A DNA stretch of 61,802 nt, from NCBI GenBank assembly GCA_944382845.1, contig CALWNN010000002.1, positions 1 to 61,802 of the forward strand. The letters run 5' to 3'. Below, piece after piece: positions 16,599 to 59,679 of the stretch. The stretch's first letter is position 1; every line of letters begins with the position of its first letter. The notes under the pieces were generated by a model. That model was not told where the DNA came from, did no database searches, and saw only the letters and a list, made by a program, of their open reading frames with translations. Both the position numbers and the translations under genes were made by a program. Source of the stretch: an uncultured Clostridia bacterium (GTDB taxonomy: Bacteria; Bacillota; Clostridia; Oscillospirales; Ruminococcaceae).

Positions 16599-16806
16599 AT
16601 AACTATGTCGCCGATGTCCCCCTGCCAAGTATTCGGCAGGTATGCCTCATATTAGGCGGGTCCGCCTCCTATGGGATGATCTGCCTCCTATAGGAGGCAG
16701 GGTTTGATTTGGGGTTTCAGAGGAGGCCGTCAGGCAGGTAGAAATCCTGACTTGTCCCCTGAGGAGCAAACTGCGATGGGATGCAATCGCCGCAGCCAAT
16801 TTTAAG
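16599..16806 (+). repeat. Modular leader repeat, copy R3 (spoVS leader)
   Basis: The 5' end is ATAACTATGTCGCCGATGTC, then the first hairpin (CTGCCAAGTATTCGGCAG, one internal mismatch). A block of short stems from GCCTC/TAGGCGG units follows (16643-16703), then a GTCAGGCAGG...TCCTGAC stem and the GAGGAGCAAACTG block. The 3' signature is diverged. It lies about 55 bases before the spoVS start. Confidence 0.75.
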
Positions 16807-16861
16807 TAAGCTTAATCGGCTTTGCTGTATAAAATATCTGTCGGAGAAAGGATGGGTAGAA

Positions 16862-17122
16862 ATGGAAATATTAAAGGTTTCATCAAGGTCTACGCCTAAC
16901 GCTGTTGCGGGTGCGATATCCGGAGTGCTGAGAACAGACGGAGCTGTAGAGGTTCAGGCAGTGGGAGCCGGCGCTACAAATCAGGCGATTAAGGCTATTG
17001 CTATTGCAAGGGGATACCTTGCTCCCTTGGGCATTGACGTTATATGTATACCGGCATTTGCCAACGTTGAAATAGACGGTGATGAAAGAACAGCAATCAA
17101 GCTTATCTGCGAAGTAAGATAA
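16862..17122 (+). CDS. spoVS: Stage V sporulation protein S
   Basis: 86 residues, the exact family length. The Alba-like fold signature is visible: MEILKVSSRSTPNAVAGAIS, GAVEVQAVGAGATNQAIKAI, and IDGDERTAIKLICEVR at the end. It is needed for late sporulation in Bacillus and probably binds nucleic acid. The start at 16862 follows GAAAGGATGG; the frame extends 27 codons upstream into repeat R3, which is not coding. It follows ymdB, the conserved order. Confidence 0.96.
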   Translation: MEILKVSSRSTPNAVAGAISGVLRTDGAVEVQAVGAGATNQAIKAIAIARGYLAPLGIDVICIPAFANVEIDGDERTAIKLICEVR

Positions 17123-17184
17123 TGAAAGCGAATAAAGGCGGCTTCTGATGTTTTAAGTCGGAAGCCCCTTCGTGTTTTAAAAGA

Positions 17185-17220
17185 AAAGCCCGGAGCAGTG
17201 AGTTCCGGGCTTTGTTTTTA
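17185..17220. terminator. Bidirectional terminator after spoVS
   Basis: Perfect 10-bp stem AAAGCCCGGA/TCCGGGCTTT with an 8-9-base loop, T-rich on the plus side. It separates convergent spoVS and the baseplate-like gene. Confidence 0.85.
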
Positions 17221-17844
17221 CATGACGATGTAAAGTGTATCCGATGACGGAACAGCTATATCATCGTATTCTTCGGAGGTCAGAACTACGATCTCCCTGA
17301 CGTCATCGCTTGTAACAAGATTATCAGGAATACAGCTTTCTACGATGGGAGTGGGATCAAAATTGTCAACAAACGCCTGAGTCTTTTCGTTTACGGCCTG
17401 TGTCGCAATGTCGTCGATGGAGGCAATGGAAGCTTCTATTTGTGAAAGAAGCTGTTCTTTGACATCTGTCGGCAGAAGATCTTCAGTGTTTTCTCCGCAG
17501 ACCTGGATTTCGCCTCCGTCAAATAAAATGATTACTTCATTGTCTGAAGACACCGCTTTCAGAGTGATCTTTAAAGGTCCGGATACCGCTGTAAAATCGG
17601 AGGTTATTTTCCAGTAAAGCTCAAGACCGTTTTCGGTGACGGAAGATGAAAGCATTTGCACCGCGCAAGTCCCCATGCTGTTTACAGCCTCTATTACAAA
17701 TCCGCAGAGGGAAAGATCTGTGCCACCGTAAAACCGCTCTGTGATAATGGTTATTTCGTCAGCATTTTTCTCTCCGTTTCGTATAAGGGTTTTGATAGGA
17801 GATGTAACAAGGGTTTTGTTGTGTGTGTAAAGAGTAATAATCAA
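17218..17844 (-). CDS. Orphan phage baseplate/tail-like protein
   Basis: About 208 residues. The N-terminal 95 residues (YTHNKTLVTSPIKTLIRNGE, then EITIITERFYGGTDLSLCGF) look like the immunoglobulin-like N-domain of BppU-type upper baseplate proteins. The C-terminus VVLTSEEYDDIAVPSSDTLY resembles the LTxEEYDAL...TLYI ends common in phage tail-fibre proteins. The middle is a helical linker. The start is probably TTG at 17844, 6 bases after AGAAAGG; the ATG at 17850 touches the ribosome site. No capsid, integrase or other tail gene is nearby, so it is a stray or domesticated gene. The family call is tentative. Confidence 0.5.
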   Translation of the reverse strand: MIITLYTHNKTLVTSPIKTLIRNGEKNADEITIITERFYGGTDLSLCGFVIEAVNSMGTCAVQMLSSSVTENGLELYWKITSDFTAVSGPLKITLKAVSSDNEVIILFDGGEIQVCGENTEDLLPTDVKEQLLSQIEASIASIDDIATQAVNEKTQAFVDNFDPTPIVESCIPDNLVTSDDVREIVVLTSEEYDDIAVPSSDTLYIVM

Positions 17845-18045
17845 AATCATCCTTTCTTTAAAACTGAAAGCTTTTACGACCCGGAAAAAAGCTTTCTATA
17901 AACAGCCTGAATCAGTGGGAAAGTTGCACGCTTTAATGCAACTCACGATAAAAATTCACAACTGATATTTTGATTTTGTATATTTTCACAAAATTAAACC
18001 GTCTGTTTTATCTGTTTTGACAAGCTGTATTTGCTTATGTAATTC

Positions 18046-18074
18046 TTGACGAGAAAGCGTAAAAGTTTTATACT
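18046..18074 (+). promoter_or_regulatory. Sigma-A promoter of malQ
   Basis: TTGACG (18046-18051), a 17-bp spacer, TATACT (18069-18074). The expected start of transcription falls within a base or two of the 5' end of repeat R4, so the malQ mRNA would begin with the repeat. The 17845-18080 part of the gap is otherwise AT-rich, with a small hairpin GTTGCA/TGCAAC near 17925-17942. Confidence 0.85.
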
Positions 18075-18079
18075 TAATT

Positions 18080-18147
18080 ATAACCAAGTCGCCTATGTCC
18101 CCCTGCCGACTAATCGGCAGGTCTGCCACATTGGTCGGCGATTTAAA
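18080..18147 (+). repeat. Modular leader repeat, short intact copy R4 (malQ leader)
   Basis: Only 68 bp: ATAACCAAGTCGCC, the CCCCCTGCC hairpin (CTGCCGACTAATCGGCAG), a short linker, and GGCGATTTAAAT. As RNA, AAGUCGCC can pair with GGCGAUUU over eight positions, including one G-U, closing the whole element. It ends 33 bases before the malQ start codon. Confidence 0.85.
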
Positions 18148-18180
18148 TAGTGAATAATTCAGGTCTTAAGGAGAGATATT

Positions 18181-19662
18181 ATGAAAACGAAACGCTGTTC
18201 AGGTGTGATAATGCATATTTCAAGTCTTCCGGATAAGCATGGTACGGGAAAAATGGGAAGGGCAGCCTACGGCTTTGCTGACTGGCTTGAAAAAGCAGGG
18301 CAGAGCATATGGCAGATACTTCCCCTTTCTCCTACAAGCTTCGGCGACTCGCCGTATCAGAGCTTTTCTGTTAATGCCGGAAATCCGTATTTTATCGACT
18401 TTGAAACTCTTGAAAAAGAGGGACTTCTCGAAAGCAAGGAATATGAAAGTCTTGATTGGGGAAAGTGCGGCGATATAGATTATGAAAAGGTGTTTAAAAA
18501 TACCTTTCCTGTGCTTAAAAAAGCCTATGACAGGTTTGCAAAAAAGCCTGATATTGAGTATAACAAATTCTGCGAAGAAAATAAGTGGCTTGGCTCTTAC
18601 AGCCTTTTTATGGCTTTGAAGGACGAACACAAGGGCGCTTCATGGGATAAATGGGAAAAGGAGCTTGTATTCAGAAAGCCGTCTGCAATTAAAGCCGCGC
18701 AAAAAAGACTTGCAAAGGAAATAGATTTTTACAACTTTTTGCAATACGAATTTTTCAAACAATGGGAAGAACTGAGGAGTTATGCAAACTCAAAGGGAAT
18801 CGAGATATTAGGAGATATTCCCATTTATGTGGCATATGACAGCGTTGAGGTCTGGGAACGCCCGGAACTTTTTTACCTTGACCGGGATAAAAAGCCTGTT
18901 GAAGTCGCCGGTTGTCCTCCCGACTGTTTTACGCCGCTTGGGCAGCTCTGGGGAAACCCTATTTATAACTGGGAGGAGATAAAAAAAGACGGCTATAGGT
19001 TCTGGATAGACAGAATAGCCGCCGCACAGAAGCTCTACGATATAATAAGGATCGACCATTTCAGGGGCTTTGACAGTTTTTATTCAATTCCCTTCGGAAG
19101 TGAAAACGCAATTAACGGTAAATGGAACAAGGGCGTCGGGATAGATCTTTTCAAGGCGGTAAAGGAAGCATTGGGACAAGTAAATATAGTTGCCGAGGAT
19201 TTGGGTTTTATAACAAAGTCGGTTGAGAGGCTTCTTAAAAAGAGCGGATATCCCGGTATGAAAGTTCTTGAATTCGGTTTTGAGCCGGGAGGGAAAAGCG
19301 AATACCTTCCCCATAATTTCAAAAGTTCAAACTGCGTATGCTACACAGGAACTCACGACAACGACACAGCGCTTGGCTGGGCAAACACTTTAAAGGGCGA
19401 AGAGCTTAAATATGCCAAAGAGATATTGGGAGTTAAAACAAGAAACGCTATGCCCCAAGCAATGATTAAGCTTGCGTGGAGCAGCATTGCAGACAGGGCA
19501 ATTGCGCAGATGCAGGATATTTTAGGCCTTGACAGCAAGGCGAGAATGAATATCCCCTCTACCTTGGGAACAAACTGGAAATGGCAGGCGGATCCTGAGG
19601 ATTTTACGGACGAACTTGCAATAAAGCTTCATAGATTGACGGAAAATTACAACAGGATTTAA
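18181..19662 (+). CDS. malQ: 4-alpha-glucanotransferase (amylomaltase, GH77)
   Basis: 493 residues. It transfers alpha-1,4-glucan segments between malto-oligosaccharides in maltodextrin or glycogen metabolism. Family signatures: HISSLPDKHGTGKMG near the N-terminus, LPLSPTSFGDSPYQS (~45), catalytic nucleophile in IIRIDHFRGFDSF (~D291), acid/base in NIVAEDLGFI (~E338), and TGTHDNDTALGW (~388). AAGGAGAG precedes the start. The last four bases overlap the convergent deacetylase gene. A 68-bp structured repeat forms its leader. Confidence 0.95.
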   Translation: MKTKRCSGVIMHISSLPDKHGTGKMGRAAYGFADWLEKAGQSIWQILPLSPTSFGDSPYQSFSVNAGNPYFIDFETLEKEGLLESKEYESLDWGKCGDIDYEKVFKNTFPVLKKAYDRFAKKPDIEYNKFCEENKWLGSYSLFMALKDEHKGASWDKWEKELVFRKPSAIKAAQKRLAKEIDFYNFLQYEFFKQWEELRSYANSKGIEILGDIPIYVAYDSVEVWERPELFYLDRDKKPVEVAGCPPDCFTPLGQLWGNPIYNWEEIKKDGYRFWIDRIAAAQKLYDIIRIDHFRGFDSFYSIPFGSENAINGKWNKGVGIDLFKAVKEALGQVNIVAEDLGFITKSVERLLKKSGYPGMKVLEFGFEPGGKSEYLPHNFKSSNCVCYTGTHDNDTALGWANTLKGEELKYAKEILGVKTRNAMPQAMIKLAWSSIADRAIAQMQDILGLDSKARMNIPSTLGTNWKWQADPEDFTDELAIKLHRLTENYNRI

Positions 19663-20564
19663 GCCTTATCACCGGATATACGGCTCATAAACTCCTCTGT
19701 TGAAATATTTCCGGGGCGGTTGAATCTTCCCATATTGTAAAGGCACTCCGGGTCGGGAGTAAGATAGTTTACTCTTTCCTCACAGGTTAGACTTGATAAA
19801 AAGCCTGCGCTTTTTATGATTCGCTGTGAGGCTTCGCAGTAAAATCCGTAAGGATAAGTAAAAACCTTCGGTACGATAGAGCAGTTTTGAGAAAGATAAT
19901 CCTGGCAAAGTTTTATATCCCCCAGAAGTGCGCTTCGGTACTCTTCGTAGCTTTCGCCGTAGTTAATAAGACAGCCTCTTCTTTCTCCGTTCAGGTTGTG
20001 CATATCGTAGGTGTGGTTTGCAAACTCCACAAGGGAGGATTCAAATAAAATGTTGATCTTCTGACTTGTAAGATATGAAAAGTCGGAGATGTTTAAACCC
20101 TCTTTGTCCGCTTTTTCACTGTACGAGCCCACAACAGAAACGGTTGCCTTGAATTTATATTTTTCAAGAAGCGGAAGAAGATATTCCGTTAAATTTCCAA
20201 AGCCGTCGTCAAAGGTTATAACAACAGGCTTTTTTGGAAGTTCTCCGCCACAGTGAACAAAATCTATTGCCTGACTTAAAAAAACAGGAGTATATCCGTT
20301 TTCCTTGAGGTATAAAAAATCCTTTTCAAGACTTTCAGGGGTTACCACATAGTCGTTTACCATATTTGTATCCTCGCTTATGCCGTGATACATGATGATG
20401 GGGAGAGACGCTCCCTCCGGCCTTGCGGCTACGGCTTCATACAGGCTGTCTTTGTAAATAAGCGAGTAAATCATATGAAACAGCAAAAGCATTGCCGCAA
20501 GAAGAAATGCGGCATACAAGCTTTTTCTTTCGAGAAAGCTTTTGAAAGAACAAAATTTTTGCAT
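19659..20564 (-). CDS. Membrane-anchored polysaccharide deacetylase (NodB domain, CE4)
   Basis: 301 residues. A single N-terminal membrane anchor (about 13-34) is followed by an extracytoplasmic NodB-type domain: PIIMYHGISED (~50), the metal-site motif VVITFDDGFGN (~113) and VEFANHTYDMHNL (~181). The family removes acetyl groups from peptidoglycan or other N-acetylated glycans. AAAGGAG lies upstream of the start. It overlaps the malQ end by four bases in convergent orientation. The substrate is not predictable. Confidence 0.85.
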   Translation of the reverse strand: MQKFCSFKSFLERKSLYAAFLLAAMLLLFHMIYSLIYKDSLYEAVAARPEGASLPIIMYHGISEDTNMVNDYVVTPESLEKDFLYLKENGYTPVFLSQAIDFVHCGGELPKKPVVITFDDGFGNLTEYLLPLLEKYKFKATVSVVGSYSEKADKEGLNISDFSYLTSQKINILFESSLVEFANHTYDMHNLNGERRGCLINYGESYEEYRSALLGDIKLCQDYLSQNCSIVPKVFTYPYGFYCEASQRIIKSAGFLSSLTCEERVNYLTPDPECLYNMGRFNRPGNISTEEFMSRISGDKA

Positions 20565-20954
20565 AAACTTCTCCTTTTATTATTTTTGTACTATATATAT
20601 TTTCGCTTAGTTGTAAAAATGCAAAAATAATAATCTTCCCTGAGAAGGAATAACACTAAGCTCTGAGATCTCGGTATGAATTTTGCCGATTTGCGATTTG
20701 ATAATTAAATTTTTTTCCAAACGACTTTCTTATACAATAAAATCGGGGAATAATTTGTTGAAAAGTTAATAGTTCTTTTAAAGAAGGGTTGCGCTCGTCT
20801 GTTAAAGCCGGACATTGTTTTTTAAATCGGAATAATTTCTGCCGTGGGCCGGTTCTTAACGGAAAATTCAAAGATTATCCTTGATTTTCCGAGGAAACTG
20901 TGAGAAAATAAAATCAGATAACAATTTGTAAAGAAAATACGTCTGAGTTTGAAT
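20565..20954. other. Gene-free region before repeat R5
   Basis: About 390 AT-rich bases between the deacetylase start and repeat R5. Read on the minus strand near 20600 there is only a weak promoter (TTTACA-N16-TATAGT). A GGAAAA...TTTTCC imperfect hairpin lies around 20860-20890. No convincing coding frame or pfkA promoter of consensus quality is visible. Confidence 0.4.
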
Positions 20955-21091
20955 ATAACCAAGTCGCCCATGTCCCCTTGCCTAAACGGCAAGACTGCAA
21001 TCATTTGGCAGGTTCTGTTCAGTCTTTCAGTGGGGGAAGCCTTTGAGGAGCAAACTGTGACGAGTTGCTTTTCGTCGCAGTGTGATTTAAA
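20955..21091 (+). repeat. Modular leader repeat, copy R5 (pfkA leader)
   Basis: 5' ATAACCAAGTCGCC, then a first hairpin whose stem reads TTGCC/GGCAA where other copies have CTGCC/GGCAG, a compensated change. The TTCAGTCTTTCAGTGGGG module follows, then GAGGAGCAAACTG and an 8-bp stem CTGTGACG/CGTCGCAG (one G-U). It ends GTGATTTAAAT, 56 bases before pfkA. Confidence 0.85.
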
Positions 21092-21147
21092 TATATAAAT
21101 TACAATGACGATAAATATAAGGAATATAAAACAGGAGATGATTTTGT

Positions 21148-22227
21148 ATGAGAAGAATTGGCATTTTAACAAGCGGCGGAGATTGCCCGGGACTTAACGC
21201 AACAATAAGAGGAGCGGCAAAGGCGTGCTATCAGCTTTTCGGAACTGAAAACGTTGAGATAGTGGGCATAAGTGACGGTTATGCAGGGCTTATCAACAAT
21301 ATGTGCAAGGATATGAAGCCTTCGGATTTCTCCGGAATACTCACCCGCGGAGGAACTATTTTCGGCACAAAGAGAACTCCGTATAAAAAGATGAGAGTTA
21401 TTGAAGAGGATAACGTTGACAAGGTAAAGGCTATGAAGGAAACCTATAAGAAACAGCGTCTTGACTGCCTCCTTACACTTGGAGGAAACGGAACGCATAA
21501 AACTGCCAATCTTCTTTCTCAGGAGGGTCTTAACGTTATCGGACTTCCAAAGACTATCGACAATGATATTTACGGTACTTCGGTTACATTCGGATTTCAC
21601 ACTGCCGTTGACATTGCAACAGATGTGATTGACAGGCTTCATTCAACCGCCGATTCCCACGACAGGATAATGGTTGTTGAAATTATGGGAAACAAGGCAG
21701 GCTGGCTTACTCTTTATTCGGGAATAGCAGGGGGAGCGGATATGATAGTTATTCCGGAGATTCCTTTTGACACGGATAAGCTTGCTGAGGCTTGCGTAAA
21801 GCGTGCTCAGTCGGGAAAGGCTTTTTCGATTCTTGCCGTTGCAGAAGGGGCATACGATAAAGAAGAAGCGAAGCTCAAGAAAAAGGAAAGAGCAAGGCTT
21901 CGTGCTGAAAAAGGAGAAGTTACGGCTTCAAACAGGATTGCTAAGGAAATAGAAGCAAAAACGGGAATGGAAACAAGAGTTTGCGTGCCGGGACATATGT
22001 TAAGAGGAGGAAGTCCTTCGGCTTACGACAGAGTTCTTGCAACAAAGTTCGGCGTAAGAGCGGCTCAACTTATAAAAGAGGGCAAATTTGGCTATACGGT
22101 CGCTATGGTAAAGTCTGTTGTTACCGAAAACAAGCTTGAGGATATTGCCGGCAAACCCAAGCTTGTGCCGATGGACGATCAGCTTGTGATAACCGCAAGA
22201 GATATTGGCATTTCGTTCGGCGACTGA
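21148..22227 (+). CDS. pfkA: 6-phosphofructokinase
   Basis: 359 residues. It phosphorylates fructose 6-phosphate to fructose 1,6-bisphosphate in glycolysis. GILTSGGDCPGLNA at the N-terminus, GGNGTHKTA (~112), PKTIDNDI (~134), IVEIMGNKAGWL-type helix (VVEIMGNKAGWLTLY) and PGHMLRGGSPSAYDR (~290). The phosphoryl-donor loop has Gly as in ATP enzymes, but Asn replaces the usual metal-binding Asp (GGNG for GGDG) and Lys occupies PKTIDND as in pyrophosphate or mixed-type enzymes. The donor (ATP or PPi) is therefore uncertain. AGGAGATGAT precedes the start. Repeat R5 forms its leader and a terminator follows. Confidence 0.93.
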   Translation: MRRIGILTSGGDCPGLNATIRGAAKACYQLFGTENVEIVGISDGYAGLINNMCKDMKPSDFSGILTRGGTIFGTKRTPYKKMRVIEEDNVDKVKAMKETYKKQRLDCLLTLGGNGTHKTANLLSQEGLNVIGLPKTIDNDIYGTSVTFGFHTAVDIATDVIDRLHSTADSHDRIMVVEIMGNKAGWLTLYSGIAGGADMIVIPEIPFDTDKLAEACVKRAQSGKAFSILAVAEGAYDKEEAKLKKKERARLRAEKGEVTASNRIAKEIEAKTGMETRVCVPGHMLRGGSPSAYDRVLATKFGVRAAQLIKEGKFGYTVAMVKSVVTENKLEDIAGKPKLVPMDDQLVITARDIGISFGD

Positions 22228-22306
22228 GTTAAAACAACTAATGACAGTTGTGGTGTTTATTTGCAGGGACGATTTTAAGGCTGACGAAAATTTTTATTAA
22301 GAAAGT

Positions 22307-22337
22307 AAAAAGCACAAGGTGAGTAAGCCCTCGCCTT
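22307..22337 (+). terminator. Terminator after pfkA
   Basis: AAAAGCACAAGG/CCTTGTGCTTTT stem with a 14-base loop and T run. The rest of 22228-22438 shows no gene. Confidence 0.9.
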
Positions 22338-22438
22338 GTGCTTTTTTATTTATCCGGAAAAAAATTATCGTCAGCAGTTAATTATAGTGATTTTCAGTTA
22401 ATAGAATTTAATAAATTCATGCGGTTTTCTGCCTTTTG

Positions 22439-22800
22439 TCAGCCAATTGCACTTTCAAATTCTGTCTGAGTCATGCTGTCTATCTGTTCCGGGGTGTAAT
22501 CTTTCTCCACAAGTTCCTTGTACTGGGAATAATTCATCTCAACCTTATTCGGATTCCGGTAAAAGAGGTCCTCGTCCCCTCTGGGTGCAGTTGTATAAAG
22601 AGTTGTGTCATCAGCATAAGTCTCAACAATATCTGCAGGCATCATATAGATATTGGTCGGATCAAAACCAGCTAGAAGATTCAGATACTGCTCCTTTGTA
22701 ATCTGAGCGCCATTATAATTTGTCAGATAAACCTCTTCCGGCGCAAGCTGCTGCATAGGCTTCTGTTCGCTTTGCCCCTTGTTTGCAAGGGTAAAACCAC
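22439..22800 (-). pseudogene. 3' remnant of an unknown gene, cut by repeat R6
   Basis: From about 22756 down to the stop at 22439 the frame encodes 105 protein-like residues (MQQLAPEEVYLTNYNGAQIT ... MTQTEFESAIG). They include acidic, tyrosine-rich helices and two internal segments of the form (Q/S)xxExLxxxx(Y/F). No ribosome site precedes the first Met. The frame continues upstream to about 22800 and then runs into repeat R6, whose sequence supplies an artificial N-terminus. The simplest reading is a truncated gene whose 5' part was lost or displaced at the repeat. I do not recognise the family. Confidence 0.5.
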
Positions 22801-22802
22801 AA

Positions 22803-22899
22803 AGCAAAGCTCCTCGGCGACAGATTGCAATCGTCGCAACGTGATTAAGCACAGCTCCGAAGGAGATGTAATTATCAACGCTTTGCTCCGATTTAAACC
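22803..22899 (+). repeat. Modular leader repeat, 5'-truncated copy R6
   Basis: It has GCTCCTCGG, the GCGAC...GTCGC hairpin, an AGCTCCGAAGGAG hairpin, and the intact 3' signature GCTTTGCTCCGATTTAAA (22881-22898). The 5' signature and first hairpin are missing. It abuts a gene remnant. It is about 200 bases before fhs, but a promoter lies between, so it is not in the fhs leader. Confidence 0.7.
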
Positions 22900-23026
22900 A
22901 TAAATTCCAGATTCTGCAAAGCTGTTTCCATATGCAAGTATTTCGTAAGCTTTAAAGCGTATTGCCTTCAGGCGACACCGCAGTTATTCACTATTGATTA
23001 TTCATTGATGAATGAAAATCTTTTAC

Positions 23027-23055
23027 TTGAAAAAGCTTGCGGAATATGCTACAAT
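23027..23055 (+). promoter_or_regulatory. Sigma-A promoter of fhs
   Basis: TTGAAA (23027-23032), a 17-bp spacer, TACAAT (23050-23055), about 42 bases before the start. The leader is too short for a tetrahydrofolate riboswitch and none is visible. Confidence 0.8.
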
Positions 23056-23096
23056 AAAAGGGATGAATTGAATTTGATATATGGAGGTTTAACACT

Positions 23097-24773: not shown

Positions 24774-24809
24774 AAAACAGATGAGCAAAAGAAAACAGCG
24801 GAGAAAACA

Positions 24810-25931: not shown

Positions 25932-25960
25932 AATAATTAACATAACAGAGGAAGAACATT

Positions 25961-27555: not shown

Positions 27556-27582
27556 AGATAAGGAATAAAACATTTACATAAC

Positions 27583-33817: not shown

Positions 33818-33905
33818 ATAACCAAGTCGCCGATGTCTCCCTGCCGAATATTCGGCAGGTCTGACCGCAAGCAAACATCATTATCACGCTTTGCTCCGAT
33901 TCAAA
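33818..33905 (+). repeat. Modular leader repeat, copy R7
   Basis: 88 bp: ATAACCAAGTCGCC, the CTGCCGAATATTCGGCAG hairpin, a short linker, ATTATCACGCTTTGCTCCGATTCAAA. It starts 7 bases after the stop of the HTH gene and ends 18 bases before the next start codon, so it is intercistronic or a leader. No separate promoter is evident. Confidence 0.85.
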
Positions 33906-44749: not shown

Positions 44750-44877
44750 ATAACCAAGTCGCCGATGTTCCCCCTGCCGAGTATTCGGCAGGTCCGCCTC
44801 ATATTAGGCGGGGCCGCATTCTATGGGATGATCTGCCTCCTGTGGGATGATCTGAGGAGCTTTGCTCTGATTTAAAA
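44750..44877 (+). repeat. Modular leader repeat, copy R8 (manA leader)
   Basis: 128 bp: ATAACCAAGTCGCC, the CTGCCGAGTATTCGGCAG hairpin, the GCCTCATATTAGGCGG hairpin shared with R3, repeated (C)TATGGGATGATCTG units, then GAGGAGCTTTGCTCTGATTTAAA. It ends 23 bases before the manA start. Confidence 0.85.
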
Positions 44878-49501: not shown

Positions 49502-49510
49502 AAAAACAGC

Positions 49511-49539: not shown

Positions 49540-49555
49540 TTTTTTGTGTAAATGC

Positions 49556-49660: not shown

Positions 49661-50932
49661 ATGACTATCCTGATAAAAAAAGCCCATGTGATTGACAGTG
49701 TAAGCCGTAAAGATGAAATACTTGACATATTTATTTCTGAGGGAATAATTTCGGAGGTCGGCAGGAATATTGACAGACAAGCTGACAGAATTATCGACTG
49801 TAAGGGCGAATTTGCGGTGATTCCGGGAATGATGGATATGCACGTTCATCTTCGCGACCCGGGCTTCACTTATAAAGAGGACATCAAGACTGGAACCGAC
49901 GCTGCAAAGGCGGGGGGCTTTACAGCTGTTGCTTGTATGCCGAACACAAAACCCGCGGCTGACAGTCCTGAAATTATAAAATACATTGTTGACAAGGCAA
50001 AAAAGACCGGAATAGACGTTTATCCTGTGGCTTGTATAACCAAGGGAATGAAGGGCGATGAACTTTGCAATTATGATGAACTTATAAAAGCCGGAGTAAA
50101 AGCTGTTTCAGACGACGGCAGGCCTGTTGAAAATGCTGAGCTTATGAGACAAGCACTTGAGCTTTCCGCCCAAAACGGGTTGACTGTGATTTCGCACTGT
50201 GAGGATTTGAACATAATAAACGGCGGTATAATGAACAAAGGCGAGGTCGCTGAAAAGATCGGCGCAAAAGGCATGGACAGAGCAAGCGAGGATTACGTTA
50301 CCGCAAGAGAAATAGCCCTTGCGGCTTCATGCGGTGCGCATATCCATATTGCTCATGTTTCAACGGAAGGCTCGGTGAATATTATTCGTGCCGCAAAAAA
50401 GGACGGAGTAAATGTTACCTGCGAGACTTGTCCGCACTATTTTACCTACACGGATCAAAAGCTGTTTACCAAGGACGCAGATTACAGAATGAATCCTCCT
50501 TTAAGAACCGAAAAAGACAGGGCGGCGGTAATGGAGGCTGTTCTTGACGGAACAATAGACTGTATAGTTACAGACCACGCTCCTCACACAAAAGAGGAAA
50601 AAGCCGACTTTTTCAAGGCTCCAAACGGCGTTGTGGGACTTGAGACATCACTTGCGGTAACTCTTACTCAGCTTTATCATACAAATAAATGCACGCTTAT
50701 GGATATTGTAAGGCTGATGAGTGAAAATCCGAGAAGGATAATGGGGCTTGAGCCTGTTTCAATTCAAGCCGGAAGCATAGCGGATATAACTGTCTTTGAC
50801 CCGAATCTGAAGTGGGAAGTCATTCCTGAGGAGCTTCATTCAAAATCAAAGAATACAGTTTTCAAGGGCGAAAAATTAACCGGAAGAACGTTATACACGA
50901 TCTCAAAGGGCATTGTGGTTTACGAGTTATAA
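49661..50932 (+). CDS. pyrC: Dihydroorotase
   Basis: 423 residues, class I (PyrC of Gram-positives). It closes carbamoyl-aspartate to dihydroorotate. Zinc motif GMMDMHVHLRDPGFTYKED (~57-75), SHCEDLNI (~174), IHIAHVSTEGS (~226), and the catalytic-Asp CIVTDHAPHTKEEK (~300). GAAAGGAATG precedes the start. Its TAA stop codon is contained in the first bases of repeat R9. Confidence 0.95.
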   Translation: MTILIKKAHVIDSVSRKDEILDIFISEGIISEVGRNIDRQADRIIDCKGEFAVIPGMMDMHVHLRDPGFTYKEDIKTGTDAAKAGGFTAVACMPNTKPAADSPEIIKYIVDKAKKTGIDVYPVACITKGMKGDELCNYDELIKAGVKAVSDDGRPVENAELMRQALELSAQNGLTVISHCEDLNIINGGIMNKGEVAEKIGAKGMDRASEDYVTAREIALAASCGAHIHIAHVSTEGSVNIIRAAKKDGVNVTCETCPHYFTYTDQKLFTKDADYRMNPPLRTEKDRAAVMEAVLDGTIDCIVTDHAPHTKEEKADFFKAPNGVVGLETSLAVTLTQLYHTNKCTLMDIVRLMSENPRRIMGLEPVSIQAGSIADITVFDPNLKWEVIPEELHSKSKNTVFKGEKLTGRTLYTISKGIVVYEL

Positions 50933-51046
50933 CCAAGTCGCCGATGTCCCCCCCCTGCCGAATATTCGGCAGGGTTCCATTCAGTTTTTCAGTGGGAGGG
51001 GGTTAATCCCCCGCTGAAACCCTGAGGAGCTTTGCTCCGATTTAAA
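50929..51046 (+). repeat. Modular leader repeat, copy R9 (between pyrC and pyrF)
   Basis: 118 bp: ATAACCAAGTCGCC, seven to eight C, the CTGCCGAATATTCGGCAG hairpin, TTCAGTTTTTCAGTGGGAGG with a GGGGGTTAATCCCCC hairpin, GCTGAAACCC, then GAGGAGCTTTGCTCCGATTTAAA. Its first TAA is the pyrC stop codon, and it ends 20 bases before pyrF. It is intercistronic with no promoter of its own. Confidence 0.88.
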
Positions 51047-51066
51047 ATTATAAAGGAGATGATCTT

Positions 51067-51999: not shown

Positions 52000-52024
52000 A
52001 ATCAGAAGAGAAAGGAAGAAATTT

Positions 52025-52792: not shown

Positions 52793-53703
52793 TGGCTGAT
52801 CTTAAAGTGAATTTCGCAGGAGTTGAATTTAAAAACCCTGTTATACCTGCAAGCGGAGCTTACGGATACGGAAGAGAATACGAGGACCTTTATCCTGTTT
52901 CTCTTCTTGGAGGAATTTCCGTAAAGGGAACGACTCTTAATAAAAAGGACGGGAATCCGCCGCCGAGAATTGCGGAAACTTATGCCGGAATGTTAAATTC
53001 GGTGGGACTTCAGAACGGCGGAGTTAAAAAGTTTCTAAATACTGAGCTTCCTTATCTTAAAACAAAGGATATCGTTGTCATTTCAAATATAGCAGGGGCA
53101 ACAGTCGAGGAGTGCAGGGAGCTTGCCGCTCTTATAGACAACTCAGACGCCGATATGATCGAACTTAATATTTCCTGCCCCAACGTAAAGCAGGGGGGAG
53201 CTGCATTCGGAACAAAATGCGACTCTGCCGCAGCTATTACAAGGGCGGTGAGAAGCGCAACAACCAAGCCTCTTATGGTTAAGCTGTCACCAAATGTAAC
53301 AAGTATAGTTGATATTGCAAAGGCAGTTGAGGCGGAAGGTGCAGACGCTGTTTCTTTGATTAACACTCTTCTTGGAATGAGAATAGACATTAAGACAAAG
53401 CGTCCTATACTTAAAAACAATGTTGGCGGACTTTCGGGCCCTGCGGTTTTCCCTGTGGCTGTAAGAATGGTATGGCAGGTTGCAAATGCGGTAAGTATCC
53501 CTGTTTGCGGAATGGGAGGAATATCCTGCGCCGAGGACGCAATTGAAATGATGATGGCGGGAGCGCAGACAATTCAGCTTGGAGCAGCTATTTTCAATAA
53601 CCCGTATGCGCCTGTTGAAATTATAGAAGGCATGAATAAGTGGTGTGACGAAAACGGCGTCAGATCAATTACCGAAATTATAGGCGCAGTCAAGCCTTGG
53701 TAA
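52792..53703 (+). CDS. pyrD: Dihydroorotate dehydrogenase B catalytic subunit
   Basis: 303 residues, class 1B. FMN barrel oxidising dihydroorotate to orotate. NPVIPASGAYGYG (~16), catalytic Cys in ELNISCPNVKQGG (~129), SLINTLLGMRID (~188), and CGMGGISCAEDAIEMM (~240) with GAxTIQLGAAIF (~262). Translationally coupled to pyrK by a one-base overlap. ruvX follows after 27 bases. Confidence 0.96.
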   Translation: MADLKVNFAGVEFKNPVIPASGAYGYGREYEDLYPVSLLGGISVKGTTLNKKDGNPPPRIAETYAGMLNSVGLQNGGVKKFLNTELPYLKTKDIVVISNIAGATVEECRELAALIDNSDADMIELNISCPNVKQGGAAFGTKCDSAAAITRAVRSATTKPLMVKLSPNVTSIVDIAKAVEAEGADAVSLINTLLGMRIDIKTKRPILKNNVGGLSGPAVFPVAVRMVWQVANAVSIPVCGMGGISCAEDAIEMMMAGAQTIQLGAAIFNNPYAPVEIIEGMNKWCDENGVRSITEIIGAVKPW

Positions 53704-53730
53704 TAATTAAATGAAAAGAGGAAGCTTATA

Positions 53731-54165
53731 TTGAAAATAATGGCAGTTGATTACGGCGACGCAAGAACAGGTCTTGCCGTTTGCGACAGAACTGAATTTT
53801 TGGCCTCTCCAATAGGCACTGTTGAGGAAAAGGATTTTAACAGGCTTGTTGAAAAGGTAGCATACATGGCAGTCCAGTACGAGGTGGGGGAAATAGTTGT
53901 GGGACTTCCCCTTAATATGAACGGTTCAAAAGGGCCGAGGGCGTCTCTTGCTGAAAGTTTTGCAAAGGCTTTGAACGAGGCGACGGATATTCCCGTTAAT
54001 ATGTGGGACGAGCGTTCCACCACCGTTCAGGCGGCAGGTTATCTCAATGAAACAAATACAAGGGGTAAAAAGCGCAAAAAGGTAATAGACACCGTTTCGG
54101 CGACTATTATACTTGAAGCATACCTTGAATTTCGCCGCAAAAAGAAGGAAAGGGAAAATTCATAA
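53731..54165 (+). CDS. ruvX: Putative pre-16S rRNA nuclease / Holliday junction resolvase YqgF
   Basis: 144 residues. RNase-H-fold nuclease, linked to 16S rRNA 5'-end maturation in E. coli. Acidic active-site motifs MAVDYGDARTGLAV, EIVVGLPLNMNGSKGPRA (~52), NMWDERSTTVQA (~92) and IDTVSATIILEAYLE (~121). The start is TTG at 53731, 8 bases after AGAGGA; an ATG three codons later is possible. End of the pyr transcript. Confidence 0.93.
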   Translation: MKIMAVDYGDARTGLAVCDRTEFLASPIGTVEEKDFNRLVEKVAYMAVQYEVGEIVVGLPLNMNGSKGPRASLAESFAKALNEATDIPVNMWDERSTTVQAAGYLNETNTRGKKRKKVIDTVSATIILEAYLEFRRKKKERENS

Positions 54166-54178
54166 TCTATAGATTTCT

Positions 54179-54212
54179 AACCGTCGGGGTTTAGTCATCC
54201 GGCGGTTTTTTG
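54179..54212. terminator. Bidirectional terminator at the pyr operon end
   Basis: AACCGTCGG/CCGGCGGTT stem (one T-G) with T run. Its 3' arm overlaps the last codons of the convergent transporter gene. Confidence 0.8.
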
Positions 54213-54565
54213 TTTTTTGAAAAAAACTGTTTTACGCCTATAAGAAAGATAAATGCCGCAAAAATTTTTCTTAATAGATAGGTGTGGATAAAAGATGCGG
54301 CAAACGCGGAGATTATAACCGCTAAAAGTCCGGGGACGGCGGATATTGCTACGGCTTTTTTGTCAACAAGCTTATTTTTGCAGTGAAATACAAGGGAAAG
54401 AAGAGCAATCGGAATGAAAAAAACAAGGTTTATTCCTTGTGCTTCAAGCTGAGAAAGAGAGGTGAAAAGTCCGAGATAAATAATAAGGATCATACCTCCG
54501 CCGAGACCCATTGAAGCGGTGAGTCCCGACAGAAAGGAGACAAGAATTATGCTTAGAGTTTCCAT
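54191..54565 (-). CDS. Half-size TSUP (TauE/SafE) transporter, second half
   Basis: 124 residues with four hydrophobic segments. The opening LSGLTASMGLGGGMILIIYL matches the repeated glycine-rich half of the TauE/SafE sulfite/organic-anion exporter family, which normally has two homologous halves in one chain of about 250 residues. The start at 54565 follows GAGGTG. It lies 3 bases after the other half-size gene, so the two are co-translated and probably assemble as a heterodimer. Confidence 0.8.
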   Translation of the reverse strand: METLSIILVSFLSGLTASMGLGGGMILIIYLGLFTSLSQLEAQGINLVFFIPIALLSLVFHCKNKLVDKKAVAISAVPGLLAVIISAFAASFIHTYLLRKIFAAFIFLIGVKQFFSKNKKPPDD

Positions 54566-54568
54566 GCT

Positions 54569-54922
54569 TCACCTCAGAAACAGCTTTAATCCTGAAATGA
54601 TAAGAAATATGGCGAAAATTTTCTTTAGCAGGCTGTTTGATATTTTTTTCATAAGAATTGCTCCTGCCGCCGCTCCTGCAAGTCCTCCCGGAATAAGCTT
54701 TAGTGCAAGTGATATGTCGACGCTTCCCTTTAAAAGATAAATAACGGCACTTGCAATGCTTAAAACAAGAGTTATCCCAATGGAAGTGCCATGGGCGCTT
54801 TTGGCGTCAAGTCCCGATTTTTCAAGAAACGGAACTGATATCAGCCCTCCTCCTGAGCCGAAAAGTCCGTTTGCGATGCCGCTTGAAATTCCTGTAATAA
54901 GATAATGTAATCCCGATCTCAT
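54569..54922 (-). CDS. Half-size TSUP (TauE/SafE) transporter, first half
   Basis: 117 residues with four hydrophobic segments. ITGISSGIANGLFGSGGGLI is the N-terminal half-repeat signature, and AHGTSIGITLVLSIASAVIY follows. It ends cleanly with a TGA stop 3 bases before the next gene, and each half has its own ribosome site (AAGGAG here). This is two genes rather than a frameshifted one. The transported anion is unknown. Confidence 0.8.
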   Translation of the reverse strand: MRSGLHYLITGISSGIANGLFGSGGGLISVPFLEKSGLDAKSAHGTSIGITLVLSIASAVIYLLKGSVDISLALKLIPGGLAGAAAGAILMKKISNSLLKKIFAIFLIISGLKLFLR

Positions 54923-55054
54923 TTTAAAAGCTCCTTTTTTGTTAGTGTCTGCTTTTTCACATGGATTATTTGTTGAATTTGTATAAAAATCAGGGTTGTT
55001 TGTCTTTTTATCTGAAGTTTAGTTAGTAAAATTTCACAAAAAATCGATTGAATG

Positions 55055-55083
55055 TTGAAAGTGGAGAAAAATTATGATATAAT
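55055..55083 (+). promoter_or_regulatory. Sigma-A promoter of the FN3/serine-hydrolase gene
   Basis: TTGAAA (55055-55060), 17 bp, TATAAT (55078-55083), giving a leader of about 220 bases. The 54923-55054 part of the gap is AT-rich, without a gene. Confidence 0.82.
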
Positions 55084-55119
55084 AACCGTAAGCAAATAGC
55101 AAGAGATTATTAATCTTAT

Positions 55120-55234
55120 GCCCAACGGCCCGCCTCTAAAGACTAAAGAGGCAAATGCCGTTTGATGGGCAATTTTGTCATACAGCTTTGGTATTATGAT
55201 AAAACATTCGCAAGCAAATCATGTTTTATTTTTA
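55120..55234 (+). ncRNA. Structured leader RNA with attenuator-like hairpin
   Basis: A three-step hairpin: GCCC/GGGC (55120-55123 with 55167-55170), AACGGC/GCCGTT (55124-55129 with 55157-55162) and GCCTCT/AGAGGC (55132-55137 with 55147-55152), with asymmetric internal loops and a purine-rich loop AAAGACTAA. About 30 bases on, TAAAACAT/ATGTTTTA with a T-rich tail (55200-55234) looks like a weak terminator; its loop AAGCAA can pair with TTGCTT further down. I could not match it to a riboswitch class I know. Confidence 0.45.
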
Positions 55235-55313
55235 AGGGGAAACTTGCTTTGCAGGACGGCGGAGTTATACTTGTCGCTCTGTCTGAAGCTTTTGTTAGAC
55301 TTTGGAGGTTAGT

Positions 55314-57899
55314 ATGAAAAAATTCTGCAAATCACTTTGCGTATGTGCGGCGTTTATATTTGCTGCGGTATTTTATTTTTCGGCGTGTGCCGATGAATTC
55401 TATAATGTTACATATCGAACCGACGGCGAAAATATCACACTTATTTTTGATACAAAAGAAGATCGTTTCTATGAAATTCATGTAAGCAAAAACGGCGGCG
55501 AATTTGTACTTGCAGGCGAGACGGAATCTGGACAATTTGAATTTCAGGGAGAGTCCGGCTGCGACTATATTTTTAAGATATCGGATTATGTTGTTTCTGA
55601 GGACTCGGAAGGAAATGCAGAGAGGGTTTATGATGAATCTGTAAGAGAAACAGAAGTGGGAACCGCACCTCAGACCCCGATAGGCGGCACGGCAGAATAC
55701 AATAGCGGAAAAATAACTTTCAGCTGGGAGGCTGTAAAAGGTGCGGACATATATGAAATATACAGGGCGGACGGTAAGAATGAGCCTGTATATATCGGTG
55801 AAACAGCCGATACATCATTCAAGACGGATTGCGACATATTCGGAGAAAAATGTTATTTCACGGTAAGAGCTTGTAATAAATGCGGACAAGAAAAGATATA
55901 CAGCGGATTTTCCGAGACTTTCAGCGTTATAACTCCTCCTCAGAAGGTTTCGGGCCTTGGACTTGTAAAGTATAATTCCTCGTCAATGAAGGTTAAGTGG
56001 AATGCTTCTAAGGGCGCGGACGGTTATGCAGTTTACAGGCGTGGACCTGACACAAACAGCAAGTATGTTTTTCTTGGATTTACCACGGCAACTACTTATG
56101 AGGTAAAGGGTATTCCTGCGGGACGTCTGCAGAAAGTAAATATTTATCCATATTCGATAATAAACGGTAAAAAGATTTATGGAGAAAATATGGTTATAAC
56201 AAGGTCTGCGGCTCCTGCAACGCCTACTCTTAAGCAGACTTCGGCTACTACAAAATCTGTAAAACTTTCATGGAACAAGGTAACTTGCGCTACGGCATAC
56301 AGAATTTATCTTTACAACTCAAAAACCAATAAGTACGAACTTAAAGATACCGTTAAGGGAACGTCAAAGACAATTTCCGGACTTTCAGCCGGAACTTCCT
56401 ACAAGGCAAGGATTATTGCCATCAGGGAATATGACGGAAGAACATATCAGTCCGGAACAAGGACGATTACTGTTTATACCACTCCCGGAAAGGTTACGGG
56501 AACAACCGTATCCTCAAGGACTACTACAAGCTATACCTTCAAGTGGTCGAAGACCAAGGGTGCGTCGGGTTATGATATATTCAGGTACAATTCCAAGACA
56601 AAAAAATATGACAAGATAAAAAGCTCGGTAACGTCCACCGGTTATACCGTTAAATCTCTTTCTCCCGGAACGGTATATTATTACAGGGTTAAGGCTTACA
56701 AAACAATAAACGGCAAAAAGTATTACAGCGATTATTCTGACAAAATAACCTGCGTTACAAAGCTTAAAGCAACATCATCGCTCAAGAGAGAAAACTTCAT
56801 AAACGGAGTAAATCTAAGCTGGAGCAAGATATCGGGAACTCAGGGATATCGGATATATGTTTCCCAGAAAAAGAACGGAACATACAAATGTATTAAAACC
56901 ATTGCCAATGCAAAGACAACGTCATACAAGATAACAGGACTTACCGGAGGAAAGACCTACTATTACAAGGTTGCGGGATATAAAAAGTCTGATGGCAAAT
57001 ATTATATTGGAGATACTAAGCTCATTACAGTTCAGCCTTACAAAAATCACAATTTTGTAAAGATTTTGAACTCCTACAAGTCAAGCAAAAGTCTTCAGGT
57101 TCTCAACTCAAAATTCAAAATAAGTGAGAGCCGCAAAAAGGCAATTATGAATATTGTAAACAAGTACAGCCGTTATCATACTACAGGGTTTGCACTTGTG
57201 GACATTAAATCCGGAGCGGCGATCATGTACAACGCAAACTGGTACGTTCCTACCGCAAGCACAGCCAAGGCTCCGTATATGATGTACGTCCTTTCTCAAC
57301 AGATAGACAAAGGAAAAGGCTCTCTTAGTGAAATACTCACATATCAGGCAAAGCAGAAGCACGGCGGAAGCGGTATCATTCAGTATTCTAAAATAGGTAC
57401 AAAATACAGCATCAAGACGGTTATACATAATATCTGCAAATACAGCGACAATGTGGGTTATTATATGCTTCAGGACAGATTTTCATATGTGGGGTTCAAC
57501 AAGTGGATGAAGTCCCTTGGAAACCAGACATTTATTAACGGCAAGGGCATACGCTGGGGAAAGGTATCTGCAAGGGATTCCGCAAAGATATGGTCAGAGA
57601 TCTACAAGTATTTTTACACGGGTAAAAACGGAAGCTTCTTCAAAAGCGAACTTCTTGCGTCCGGATATCCTAACTTCAGAGATATATTGGGAGGAAAATA
57701 CAAGATCGCAAGCAAATCGGGCTCTACGGAAGTAGGCTGGCACGACACGGGGATCGTTTTCAAGGGAGATAATCCTTACATCCTTATTCTTCTTACAAAC
57801 GACAACTATCTCCACCCTGATTACGCTTTCCAGAAAAATCTCACTCTCCAGCTTGATGCGCTTCACACTGAACTTGTAAATTACAACAATAAAAAATAA
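55314..57899 (+). CDS. Surface protein with FN3 repeats and class-A beta-lactamase-like serine hydrolase domain
   Basis: 861 residues. N-terminal signal with a lipobox-like FSAC (~30). About five fibronectin-III-type repeats of roughly 90 residues (about 120-580) follow, rich in Lys, Thr and Tyr (e.g. KVKWNASKGADGYAVYR). The C-terminal domain (about 600-861) has the penicillin-recognising triad: STAK (SxxK) in YVPTASTAKAPYMM, SDN in CKYSDNVGYYML, and KSGS in IASKSGSTEVGWHDTG. It could be a cell-wall carboxypeptidase or a lactamase-like protein; resistance cannot be inferred. The start at 55314 follows GGAGG. Confidence 0.85.
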   Translation: MKKFCKSLCVCAAFIFAAVFYFSACADEFYNVTYRTDGENITLIFDTKEDRFYEIHVSKNGGEFVLAGETESGQFEFQGESGCDYIFKISDYVVSEDSEGNAERVYDESVRETEVGTAPQTPIGGTAEYNSGKITFSWEAVKGADIYEIYRADGKNEPVYIGETADTSFKTDCDIFGEKCYFTVRACNKCGQEKIYSGFSETFSVITPPQKVSGLGLVKYNSSSMKVKWNASKGADGYAVYRRGPDTNSKYVFLGFTTATTYEVKGIPAGRLQKVNIYPYSIINGKKIYGENMVITRSAAPATPTLKQTSATTKSVKLSWNKVTCATAYRIYLYNSKTNKYELKDTVKGTSKTISGLSAGTSYKARIIAIREYDGRTYQSGTRTITVYTTPGKVTGTTVSSRTTTSYTFKWSKTKGASGYDIFRYNSKTKKYDKIKSSVTSTGYTVKSLSPGTVYYYRVKAYKTINGKKYYSDYSDKITCVTKLKATSSLKRENFINGVNLSWSKISGTQGYRIYVSQKKNGTYKCIKTIANAKTTSYKITGLTGGKTYYYKVAGYKKSDGKYYIGDTKLITVQPYKNHNFVKILNSYKSSKSLQVLNSKFKISESRKKAIMNIVNKYSRYHTTGFALVDIKSGAAIMYNANWYVPTASTAKAPYMMYVLSQQIDKGKGSLSEILTYQAKQKHGGSGIIQYSKIGTKYSIKTVIHNICKYSDNVGYYMLQDRFSYVGFNKWMKSLGNQTFINGKGIRWGKVSARDSAKIWSEIYKYFYTGKNGSFFKSELLASGYPNFRDILGGKYKIASKSGSTEVGWHDTGIVFKGDNPYILILLTNDNYLHPDYAFQKNLTLQLDALHTELVNYNNKK

Positions 57900-57905
57900 A
57901 GCATA

Positions 57906-57940
57906 AACTCCCGACAGTTTTTCTGCCGGGAGCTTGTTGT
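57906..57940. terminator. Bidirectional terminator between FN3 and J-like genes
   Basis: CTCCCGACAG/CTGCCGGGAG stem (one mismatch) with a T-rich loop, followed by T-rich sequence on the plus strand. Confidence 0.72.
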
Positions 57941-57950
57941 TTAAAATGTT

Positions 57951-59228
57951 CTATTTGTCAAGCAGGGATCTTACTAATTCTACAATGTCATTCCAGAAAA
58001 CTATTCCAAGAGTAACAAGGGTCGCAACTATAATAACGAAGATAGTAAATTTCAGAAGAGCCTTGCCTTTGCGCTTGAGCTTTGCATCTACTATATCGTT
58101 TGCAACATCTTCTCCTGTTGCAAATCTGTCCCTGATATCGGCTATGCCCTTCTGAGAAAAACTTATCTGAGGATTTAACATATCTGAAATATCAACGTTC
58201 TGAGGACCTTCGGGAGAGTCAAGATCATATGGAGAGTAAAGTTTTGCTTCGTCGTAGACCTTGACGTTAACCTTGTCCATGGTAAGTTCGGCTTCTTCTT
58301 CTTTTCCCAGATTTCCGCCACCGAAAACCTTTGAGGTGTCTACTGATTTGATCTCCTGATTTTTTGCTCTGTTTGACTTTATCATTCGGTTAAGCGCTTC
58401 GGTATAGATGTTTTCTTCATCGGAAGTCGCACTTTCTACAAGTCCGACATTTACTTTGGCCTCATCGCTTTCTTCCGTGGCTTCAAGTGTATCAAGACCT
58501 GCAATGGTTGGCATTTGCGGAGCTTTTCTTCCGATAACTTTCTTTGATTTCTTTTCTGATGTTTTAAGTTCGCTCATAAAGGCGGTAACATCACCGTCAA
58601 AAAGTGCGATCGAAAGGATTTCTGACGCGTTTACGGCGTCAATTGAACCCTTTACAAGTTCCTTCATGGGAAGAAGTATTATTTCGGAGAAGGTAGTATA
58701 AAAGCCCTTTAAAATGTCGATCTGATCCTTGTATACTTCTTTGGGAAAACGGTGATCGAAAAGAATCTCCCATTCATCGGGCGTCGAGCAAATAAGAGAG
58801 TCTATGTGTCTTGATATTTTGAACCAGAGATTTTTGTATGTAAGCCTTCTGTCGTTTATTATAAGCCACATATAACAACTTAAAAACTTGTCGTAGCTGT
58901 CAATATTGCTTATCTGTATCTCAACGTCGGCTCTTGAAAGGTTTACGGCGTAAAGACTTTCGGAAAAAGCAAAACAACGGTAAACGTCTCCCGAAAGCTT
59001 GTTGTAGGCAGTTTCAAGAGAGTCGGAATTTCTTTCGAATGACGGAAGCGATGGAAAGTCGAAAGGCGACTTGTATGAATCGATAGTTCCGTTTTCGCAC
59101 ATTGCAAGAAGTGCATGATATGTTTGGTCAATTTCTTTCTGCGTTGAGTCAACGGCTATGCCGAGTATTCTGTACGGATTGTACGCAAAAAGTTCCATGA
59201 CCGTTACGCCAAGCTTATCTGTTGCCAT
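57951..59228 (-). CDS. Tail-anchored protein with J-domain-like N-terminus
   Basis: 425 residues. Residues 12-45 (YNPYRILGIAVDSTQKEIDQ, TYHALLAMCENG) resemble helices I-II of a DnaJ domain, but there is no HPD motif, so stimulation of a DnaK is doubtful. The middle (about 60-200) is helical and aromatic-rich. Residues 215-385 are acidic and probably disordered. A single transmembrane segment near the C-terminus (about 393-416) leaves a short tail, giving a tail-anchored topology. GGGGGAGATGAT precedes the start. Unknown function; it stands divergent from two further unknown genes and a cyclophilin. Confidence 0.65.
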   Translation of the reverse strand: MATDKLGVTVMELFAYNPYRILGIAVDSTQKEIDQTYHALLAMCENGTIDSYKSPFDFPSLPSFERNSDSLETAYNKLSGDVYRCFAFSESLYAVNLSRADVEIQISNIDSYDKFLSCYMWLIINDRRLTYKNLWFKISRHIDSLICSTPDEWEILFDHRFPKEVYKDQIDILKGFYTTFSEIILLPMKELVKGSIDAVNASEILSIALFDGDVTAFMSELKTSEKKSKKVIGRKAPQMPTIAGLDTLEATEESDEAKVNVGLVESATSDEENIYTEALNRMIKSNRAKNQEIKSVDTSKVFGGGNLGKEEEAELTMDKVNVKVYDEAKLYSPYDLDSPEGPQNVDISDMLNPQISFSQKGIADIRDRFATGEDVANDIVDAKLKRKGKALLKFTIFVIIVATLVTLGIVFWNDIVELVRSLLDK

Positions 59229-59442
59229 AAAATCATCTCCCCCTGATTTATTGAAAATGATTAATATTTCAAAATAATATAAATTATATATTATTAATTA
59301 TAACTAAAGTCCGTCTTTTATATATCAACAATATATGAACCGAATATTATATATTTATTAATGAAAAATCCGTTTTGTAAATTCGGGTAAAAGGATTTGC
59401 AATTTCAAACAAAATGTAGTATAATAAAAATATATTAGTTTA
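59229..59442. other. AT-rich divergent intergenic region with promoter of the 59712 gene
   Basis: A clear plus-strand promoter: TTGCAA (59397-59402), 17 bp, TATAAT (59420-59425), starting transcription just before repeat R10. For the minus-strand J-like gene only weak -10-like AT-rich sites are visible. No gene is present. Confidence 0.7.
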
Positions 59443-59679
59443 ATAACCAAGTCGCCCATGTCCCCCCTGCAGATTAATCTGCAGGTTTGCCGTATTAATA
59501 GGCAGGTATGCCTCTATAGGCGGATCTGCTTCCTATAAGGAGGCGGGTTCCGTTTAGTTTTTCAGTGGGGTGGTGGGCAGGTGGGAATCCCAACTTGCCC
59601 ACCTGAGGAGCAAGTTCTAAACAATTACTTGTCATTGATAATGACGAGTTGTAATCGTTGCGGCTTGCTTCGATTTAAA
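59443..59679 (+). repeat. Modular leader repeat, longest copy R10
   Basis: 237 bp: ATAACCAAGTCGCC; a first hairpin CTGCAGATTAATCTGCAG in which both arms changed together against CTGCCGA/TCGGCAG; several GCC(T)/AGGC stems; TTTAGTTTTTCAGTGGGG; a long GGTGGGCAGGTGGG / CCCAACTTGCCCACC stem; GAGGAGCAAG; an AATTACTTGTCATT palindromic module shared with R1; and TTGCTTCGATTTAAA. It ends 32 bases before the 59712 start. Confidence 0.87.

Follow-up and report, generated by a model that had tools for sequence, protein, structure and literature searches.

The repeat family and its copies in the window

The window, a stretch of 61,802 nucleotides from an uncultured, Ruminococcus-like gut Clostridia bacterium (Ruminococcaceae) with an assembled genome of 2,135,633 bases in 93 contigs, carries a set of similar hairpin-rich repeats, seven of which bear a recognisable left end and precede a gene, all of them in the sense of that gene. 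The products of six of the seven genes contain the Pfam domains that their names predict (SpoVS, GH77, PFK, Orn/Lys/Arg decarboxylase, phosphomannose isomerase and OMP decarboxylase), and the protein of the seventh, which starts at 59712, has no Pfam match at E<=1e-5. The 24-base left end matches seven places in the window with at most three mismatches and none in any of 100 shuffled versions, which excludes chance as the source of the repeats. In the whole genome, a 20-mer of the left end has 149 matches with at most three mismatches, as compared to one for its reversed control, and an 18-mer of the right end has 157 as compared to two. The repeats thus belong to a hairpin-rich family of about 150 genome copies that has no gene of its own.

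An earlier note on this DNA had described such repeats, with similar ends around a variable hairpin interior, as parts of the leaders of seven genes. The copies are indeed found where it placed them (Table 1), but some assignments have to be modified: the copy at 3238 lies on the minus strand and is not a leader, the copies at 1 and 22803 are right parts only, and the spoVS copy, judged from its sister copies, probably runs to about 16834 and not to 16806. The pyrF copy sits on the stop codon of the preceding dihydroorotase-like gene and hence within a gene pair, not in a fresh leader. At malQ, the putative transcript start at the first base of the copy is based on a promoter-like match read by eye.

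Table 1. Copies of the repeat family in the window
Position	Strand	Description	Basis
1..126	+	Right part of a copy, truncated by the contig start	Right end 109-126 exact
211..375	+	Diverged copy	By-eye reading against consensus
3238..3295	-	Diverged short copy whose start coincides with the TAA stop of gene 3292-4629	Sequence comparison
16599..16834	+	Copy upstream of spoVS (start 16862)	Left end with 2 mismatches; approximate boundary at a diverged right end
18080..18147	+	Precedes malQ (start 18181); at 68 bp the shortest complete copy	Left-end match
20955..21091	+	Copy upstream of pfkA (start 21148)	Left-end match
22803..22899	+	Right part of a copy, left end missing	Right-end match
33818..33905	+	Precedes an Orn/Lys/Arg decarboxylase-like gene (start 33924)	Left-end match
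44750..44876	+	Precedes manA (predicted start 44901); not present in the leader of relatives	Left-end match
50929..51046	+	Overlies the TAA stop (50930-50932) that ends the dihydroorotase-like gene 49661-50932; upstream of pyrF (51067)	Left-end match
59443..59679	+	Longest copy in the window, upstream of the unknown 59712 gene	Left-end match

The family was analysed in a sample of 709,279 bases, consisting of the window and 57 stretches fetched around copies among the matches listed. It holds 114 left ends at up to four mismatches and 110 at up to three; the four additional ones were left out of most counts and kept in one. Copies with a recognised right end (89) are regarded as complete, counts of neighbouring genes require that both neighbours are known (98 of 110), and five of the 110 copies lie on contigs with a GC3 skew below 0.02 and receive no strand call, which leaves 105 callable copies.

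Ends and modules of the element

Complete copies span 68-302 bp. On the left side, T (84%) and ATAA (98-100%) are followed by C[CT]AAGTCGCC in the 110 copies, and the right end is GATTTAAA, beyond which no base is conserved (88 copies), so that a fixed short target is present at the left end only. The first four to five bases (TATAA), which the earlier note had included in the element, look like an insertion target. This is also suggested by a tandem pair (L031), in which the second copy starts directly after the TTTAAA of the first. A left hairpin is followed by a long hairpin (CAGTGGGGG/CCCCCACTG), by a stem (GGAGCAAAGC..GCTTTGCTCC) that encloses two more hairpins, and by the right end GATTTAAA. 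The interior between the similar ends is variable: many short copies lack the part enclosed by the GGAGCAAAGC..GCTTTGCTCC stem, and long copies have small hairpins repeated within a loop. Stems account for 18% of the length, as compared to 1.5% after shuffling (86 copies). Hairpins are found near both ends, with a longer distance to the left than to the right cut, and just inside the ends an imperfect pairing of about six bases (AAGTCG/CGATTT) appears in many folds. The flanks are incompatible with a target duplication of at least four bases, whereas one of two to three bases could not be read from them, as the right end is an invariant TTTAAA.

Besides the complete copies, there are 28 right ends with no left end nearby and 25 copies with no recognised right end, 16 of these away from contig edges. 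At L046:11620 onward (+), the left hairpin unit of about 21 bp (TCTGCCGCAGTATTCGGCAGG) is tandemly repeated some five times, which points to module growth within one element. An end-palindromic copy at L037:~610-731 has the right end at both sides (TTTAAATCGGAGC...GCTCCGATTTAAA), and very short or left-degenerate relatives with a minimum of about 36-50 bp (L061:7801, L066:14389 and L081:7569, minus-strand coordinates) retain TATAACC and the right end.

Position relative to genes and stop codons

Predicted genes contain 74.5% of the TATAA sites but none of the 110 copies, which indicates selection against gene disruption. With respect to the element, the upstream and downstream genes are ++ in 53 cases, -+ in 20, +- in 14 and -- in 11, and 12 copies have an unknown neighbour. 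The downstream gene is thus in sense for 73 of 98 copies and the other 25 face away from it, so that the window with its seven sense leaders is atypical of the sample; gaps between convergent genes hold 14 of the 110 copies, and 11 are antisense between tandem genes. Among 64 complete sense copies, 29 end at most 60 bases from the start codon, and none ends closer than 14 bases.

In 21 of the 110 copies, the left flank is the TAA stop codon of the upstream gene. TATAA stop codons are occupied in 16 of 29 cases, other TATAA sites outside genes in 69 of 906 (odds ratio 15; absolute occupancy is inflated, as the sampled stretches were selected as copy-bearing), and this enrichment could arise from the safety of such sites, from a genuine preference for them, or from both. 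Five stop-site copies can be compared with relatives. The same stop codon is used at window position 50929 and at L064, whereas the gene of the relative ends one codon before it at L078 and L075 and about ten codons beyond it at L056. As the TGA of that relative is also in frame beyond the L056 element here, the TAA at L056 arose in this lineage.

Orientation follows replication

Along the leading strand as called from GC3 skew, 85 of the 105 callable copies are oriented (81%, p=1e-10), whereas TATAA sites outside genes in the sampled stretches are balanced by strand (427:403). Genes in these stretches are also biased, with 377 leading and 216 lagging, and the two influences can be separated only where genes oppose replication. 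Between leading-strand tandem genes, there are 42 sense copies and one antisense copy with stop-codon sites included (31:1 without them), but between lagging-strand tandem genes the ratio is 9:10 (4:10 without them). The strand bias holds at convergent sites too, and when gene and replication direction are modelled jointly for 76 copies, the latter is highly significant given the former (p=1.6e-8). As orientation follows replication, most genes lie on the leading strand and copies are purged from genes, sense copies in front of genes result, and the sense-leader pattern looks like a by-product of replication-linked orientation. Looking at copies where genes oppose replication is a test that suits any intergenic repeat.

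It had been considered in the earlier note that random strands or many copies inside genes would speak for a neutral element. Neither was observed, yet the non-randomness exists mainly relative to replication. Likewise, of its suggestion that a mobile element is tolerated only in transcribed leaders, the mobility is supported, while orientation follows replication more than the downstream gene.

Empty sites and other hosts

In about 960 kb from four congeners (mostly G003), both flanks of 16 of the 89 complete copies were found in one stretch (10 in the first 614 kb). A gapless empty site exists only at L056:4927-5028, where the flanks join without an extra base. At the remaining comparable sites, the spacer length differs by 1 to 353 bases, which is too diverged for base counting, and the spacings at L050:14046, L076 and L077 differ too much for any judgement of the join. 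The pyr site is empty in all seven aligned relatives, and 1.07 Mb from relatives yielded no match to a left-end profile (E<=0.001), as compared to 116 in the stretches of this genome.

Outside the genus, a survey of the family found matches in two of 397 genomes, this one and G190 from another genus, and a survey of the order, drawn separately and without G190 in its listing, found two of 394, this one and G512 from another family. G512 has a single copy of 167 bp. The 15 copies counted in G190 share their modules, left target (with C in place of T in one of them) and right end with the copies of this genome; two of 17 rows, with six mismatches, were dropped, and one additional copy found only by BLAST (L277) was not counted. 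In G190, 13 of 14 callable copies lie along the leading strand (p=0.0018), or 14 of 15 if one weak call is counted, none of the 15 is in a predicted gene, and three are on TAA stops. As 111 genes there are leading and 43 lagging, this sample alone cannot separate gene from replication effects. The absence of copies at comparable sites of relatives, together with the patchy presence in other genera, supports mobility. The patchy hosts would suit horizontal spread, with loss elsewhere as the alternative.

Searches of phage collections with a 253-base query, of phages and plasmids with a 168-base query, and of phage, plasmid and viral collections with two exact patterns gave no match; a third exact pattern gave one chance match in a coding region (L287). 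The exact left-end pattern had none in a general genome-contig collection that may omit this genome.

A probable mobile family resembling known single-strand elements

With moderate confidence, the repeats can be regarded as a non-autonomous mobile DNA family that moves as single strands during chromosome replication, in a manner similar to IS200/IS605 elements and PATEs. An enzyme acting in trans would attach a strand with subterminal hairpins to the 3' side of a TATAA target where the lagging-strand template is exposed, presumably without target duplication, and copies would therefore face the direction of the fork. Selection would remove insertions in genes, and the survivors would be intergenic, often on TAA stops, or ahead of the ribosome-binding site in 5' leaders, with effects on downstream genes that would be incidental.

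Several known systems share part of this behaviour. IS200/IS605 elements insert 3' to a fixed tetra- or pentanucleotide, have subterminal hairpins, and are expected to be biased toward the lagging-strand template (PMC6006769, PMC7290912). The present family agrees in the 3' insertion at a fixed target, the hairpins and the orientation bias toward the lagging-strand template (85/105; 13/14 in G190), but has no internal tnpA or tnpB, guide pairing is not evident, and no intact Y1 gene was found in either well-populated host, this genome and G190. PATEs are transposase-free IS200/IS605 derivatives in Haloquadratum with a longer distance to the palindrome on the 5' side (PMC3119063). Like the present elements, they are too short for a gene, have near-terminal palindromes, a short 5' target and the longer 5' palindrome distance, and occur in many copies in a host whose transposases are mostly broken (PMC3119063). 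Differences lie in the Ruminococcus-like host, the modular interior and the end pairing of about six bases of the present family, for which no related IS605 element was found.

Inside, the family is similar in design to BOX of Streptococcus pneumoniae as published: fixed end modules surround a variable number of hairpin modules, the copies are intergenic and patchy among relatives, and copy numbers are comparable (about 125 for BOX and about 150 here; PMC3049150). BOX is reported to have terminal repeats and target duplications, and 60.8% of its copies are on the leading strand, which mirrors the gene bias (PMC3049150), unlike the present family with its 81% leading as compared to 64% of the genes (377/593). 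REP/REPIN sequences with TnpA-REP are also high-copy intergenic hairpin DNA that is thought to be moved as single strands (PMC6006769; see also PMC3116915, PMC8266576), but REPs are palindromes of 21-65 nt with a GT[AG]G foot, whereas the units here are directional and 68-302 bp long, and no intact Y1 protein was found for them. It can thus be suggested that the family is PATE- and IS200/IS605-like in behaviour and BOX-like inside, combining an insertion mode and a modular growth that are otherwise known apart; literature searches for Ruminococcus or Clostridia found neither design and no such repeat. Membership in the IS200/IS605-PATE group is not claimed, since a cognate transposase was sought without success, guide pairing is not evident, and the absence of duplications is thinly tested.

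The following points weigh against single-strand movement of this kind. This genome has a single Y1 transposase match (L118:251-484, minus strand), which is broken by two stops, and none was found in the four congeners or in G190. No guide tetranucleotide 5' of the hairpin foot that would match the target or the right end was seen by eye in alignment A2. A published set of IS605 elements had no strand preference, with 10 of 22 leading (PMC7290912). The leading strand was called on partial contigs with no mapped origin, and in the joint model gene direction given replication keeps a weak effect (p=0.014), which leaves some room for a co-transcription effect. Finally, the absence of a short target duplication is concluded mainly from the one clean empty site, L056, and the invariant right TTTAAA could hide a duplication of two to three bases.

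Near the broken Y1 match, there is no left end and only a lone right-end-like match with four mismatches; an unrelated hairpin (GCACCCGCATAGCGGGTG) lies upstream. TnpB (PF07282) was found in none of five genomes of the genus. No autonomous parent was recognised, either at the 16 left ends that lie away from contig edges and lack a right end, inspected by eye along about 460 bases, or at L032, where a left-only and a right-only end about 3 kb apart were likewise judged by eye. The mover may be lost, transient, or of another kind.

Other explanations

An unlikely alternative is a classical miniature inverted-repeat transposable element (MITE) that a double-strand (DDE) transposase would mobilise, with AAGTCG/CGATTT as short terminal repeats, a TA or TAA duplication, and a strand bias that results from selection. 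The pairing of the ends in many folds, the possibility of a duplication hidden in TTTAAA, and the terminal repeats and duplications reported for BOX as the closest modular repeat (PMC3049150) would be in line with this. However, the bias stays where the sense of neighbours cannot explain it, namely at convergent sites and between tandem genes on the lagging strand, and a TAA duplication hidden in TTTAAA would add one base at L056, where the flanks join without one. To be given equally little weight is an undescribed, non-Y1 system of replication-coupled single-strand insertion, in which a folded unit of about 165-250 nt would be joined after TATAA, with a preference for TATAA stop codons, and would have spread across genera and families within one order with no gene of its own.

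Less probable still is that the repeats are recurrent cis-acting leader RNAs, i.e. attenuators or ligand- or protein-binding elements in sense before the genes that they control. The sense orientation of 73/98 copies, the 29/64 complete sense copies that end near but never directly at the start codon, the strong structures and the weak residual gene effect fit this idea, but orientation tracks replication, a quarter of the copies (25/98) face the other way, and copies also occur between convergent genes and in antisense. The comparison of leaders that the earlier note had proposed found comparable sites of relatives to be free of the element, as in all seven at pyrF. A common function is lacking in the seven window genes and the 20 scanned of 25 further close sense-leader genes, 19 of which 20 have Pfam matches of mixed function, and the idea of a regulon was dropped. 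No Rfam family matches the window at its gathering score, and none of the 13 matches from a lax search reaches that of its own family. The covariation term is about zero, with 2 of 36 pairs compensatory. G-T exceed A-C mismatches in the top-strand structure by 11 to 4 (p=0.12), and in alignment A2 by 16 to 9 positions (p=0.23) or 28 to 9 cells (p=0.003). A general role as a regulatory leader is therefore not supported, although strong hairpins in dozens of leaders may alter expression locally, and mobile DNA can mimic a family of regulatory leaders.

Scarcely credible is an RNA-mediated element, group II intron-like or reverse-transcribed, entering the lagging-strand template: the same polarity and a target recognised upstream are expected of it, but no intron-like ends were seen, no Rfam family matches the window at gathering score, and, as reverse transcription tends to lose the 5' end, the 16 of 25 right-end-less copies away from contig edges that keep their left end speak against it, if weakly, since 28 right ends lack a nearby left end.

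Additional sequence observations

Window positions 1-126 may be an assembly overlap, as contig C72 begins with the same 126 bases. The final 126-127 bases of the window (61676-61802) recur with 99-100% identity at the ends of contigs C24, C29 and C36, and this, too, looks like an assembly overlap at repeats. One copy adjoins a flank near L063 5313 that presumably resembles the complement of a cobalamin riboswitch.

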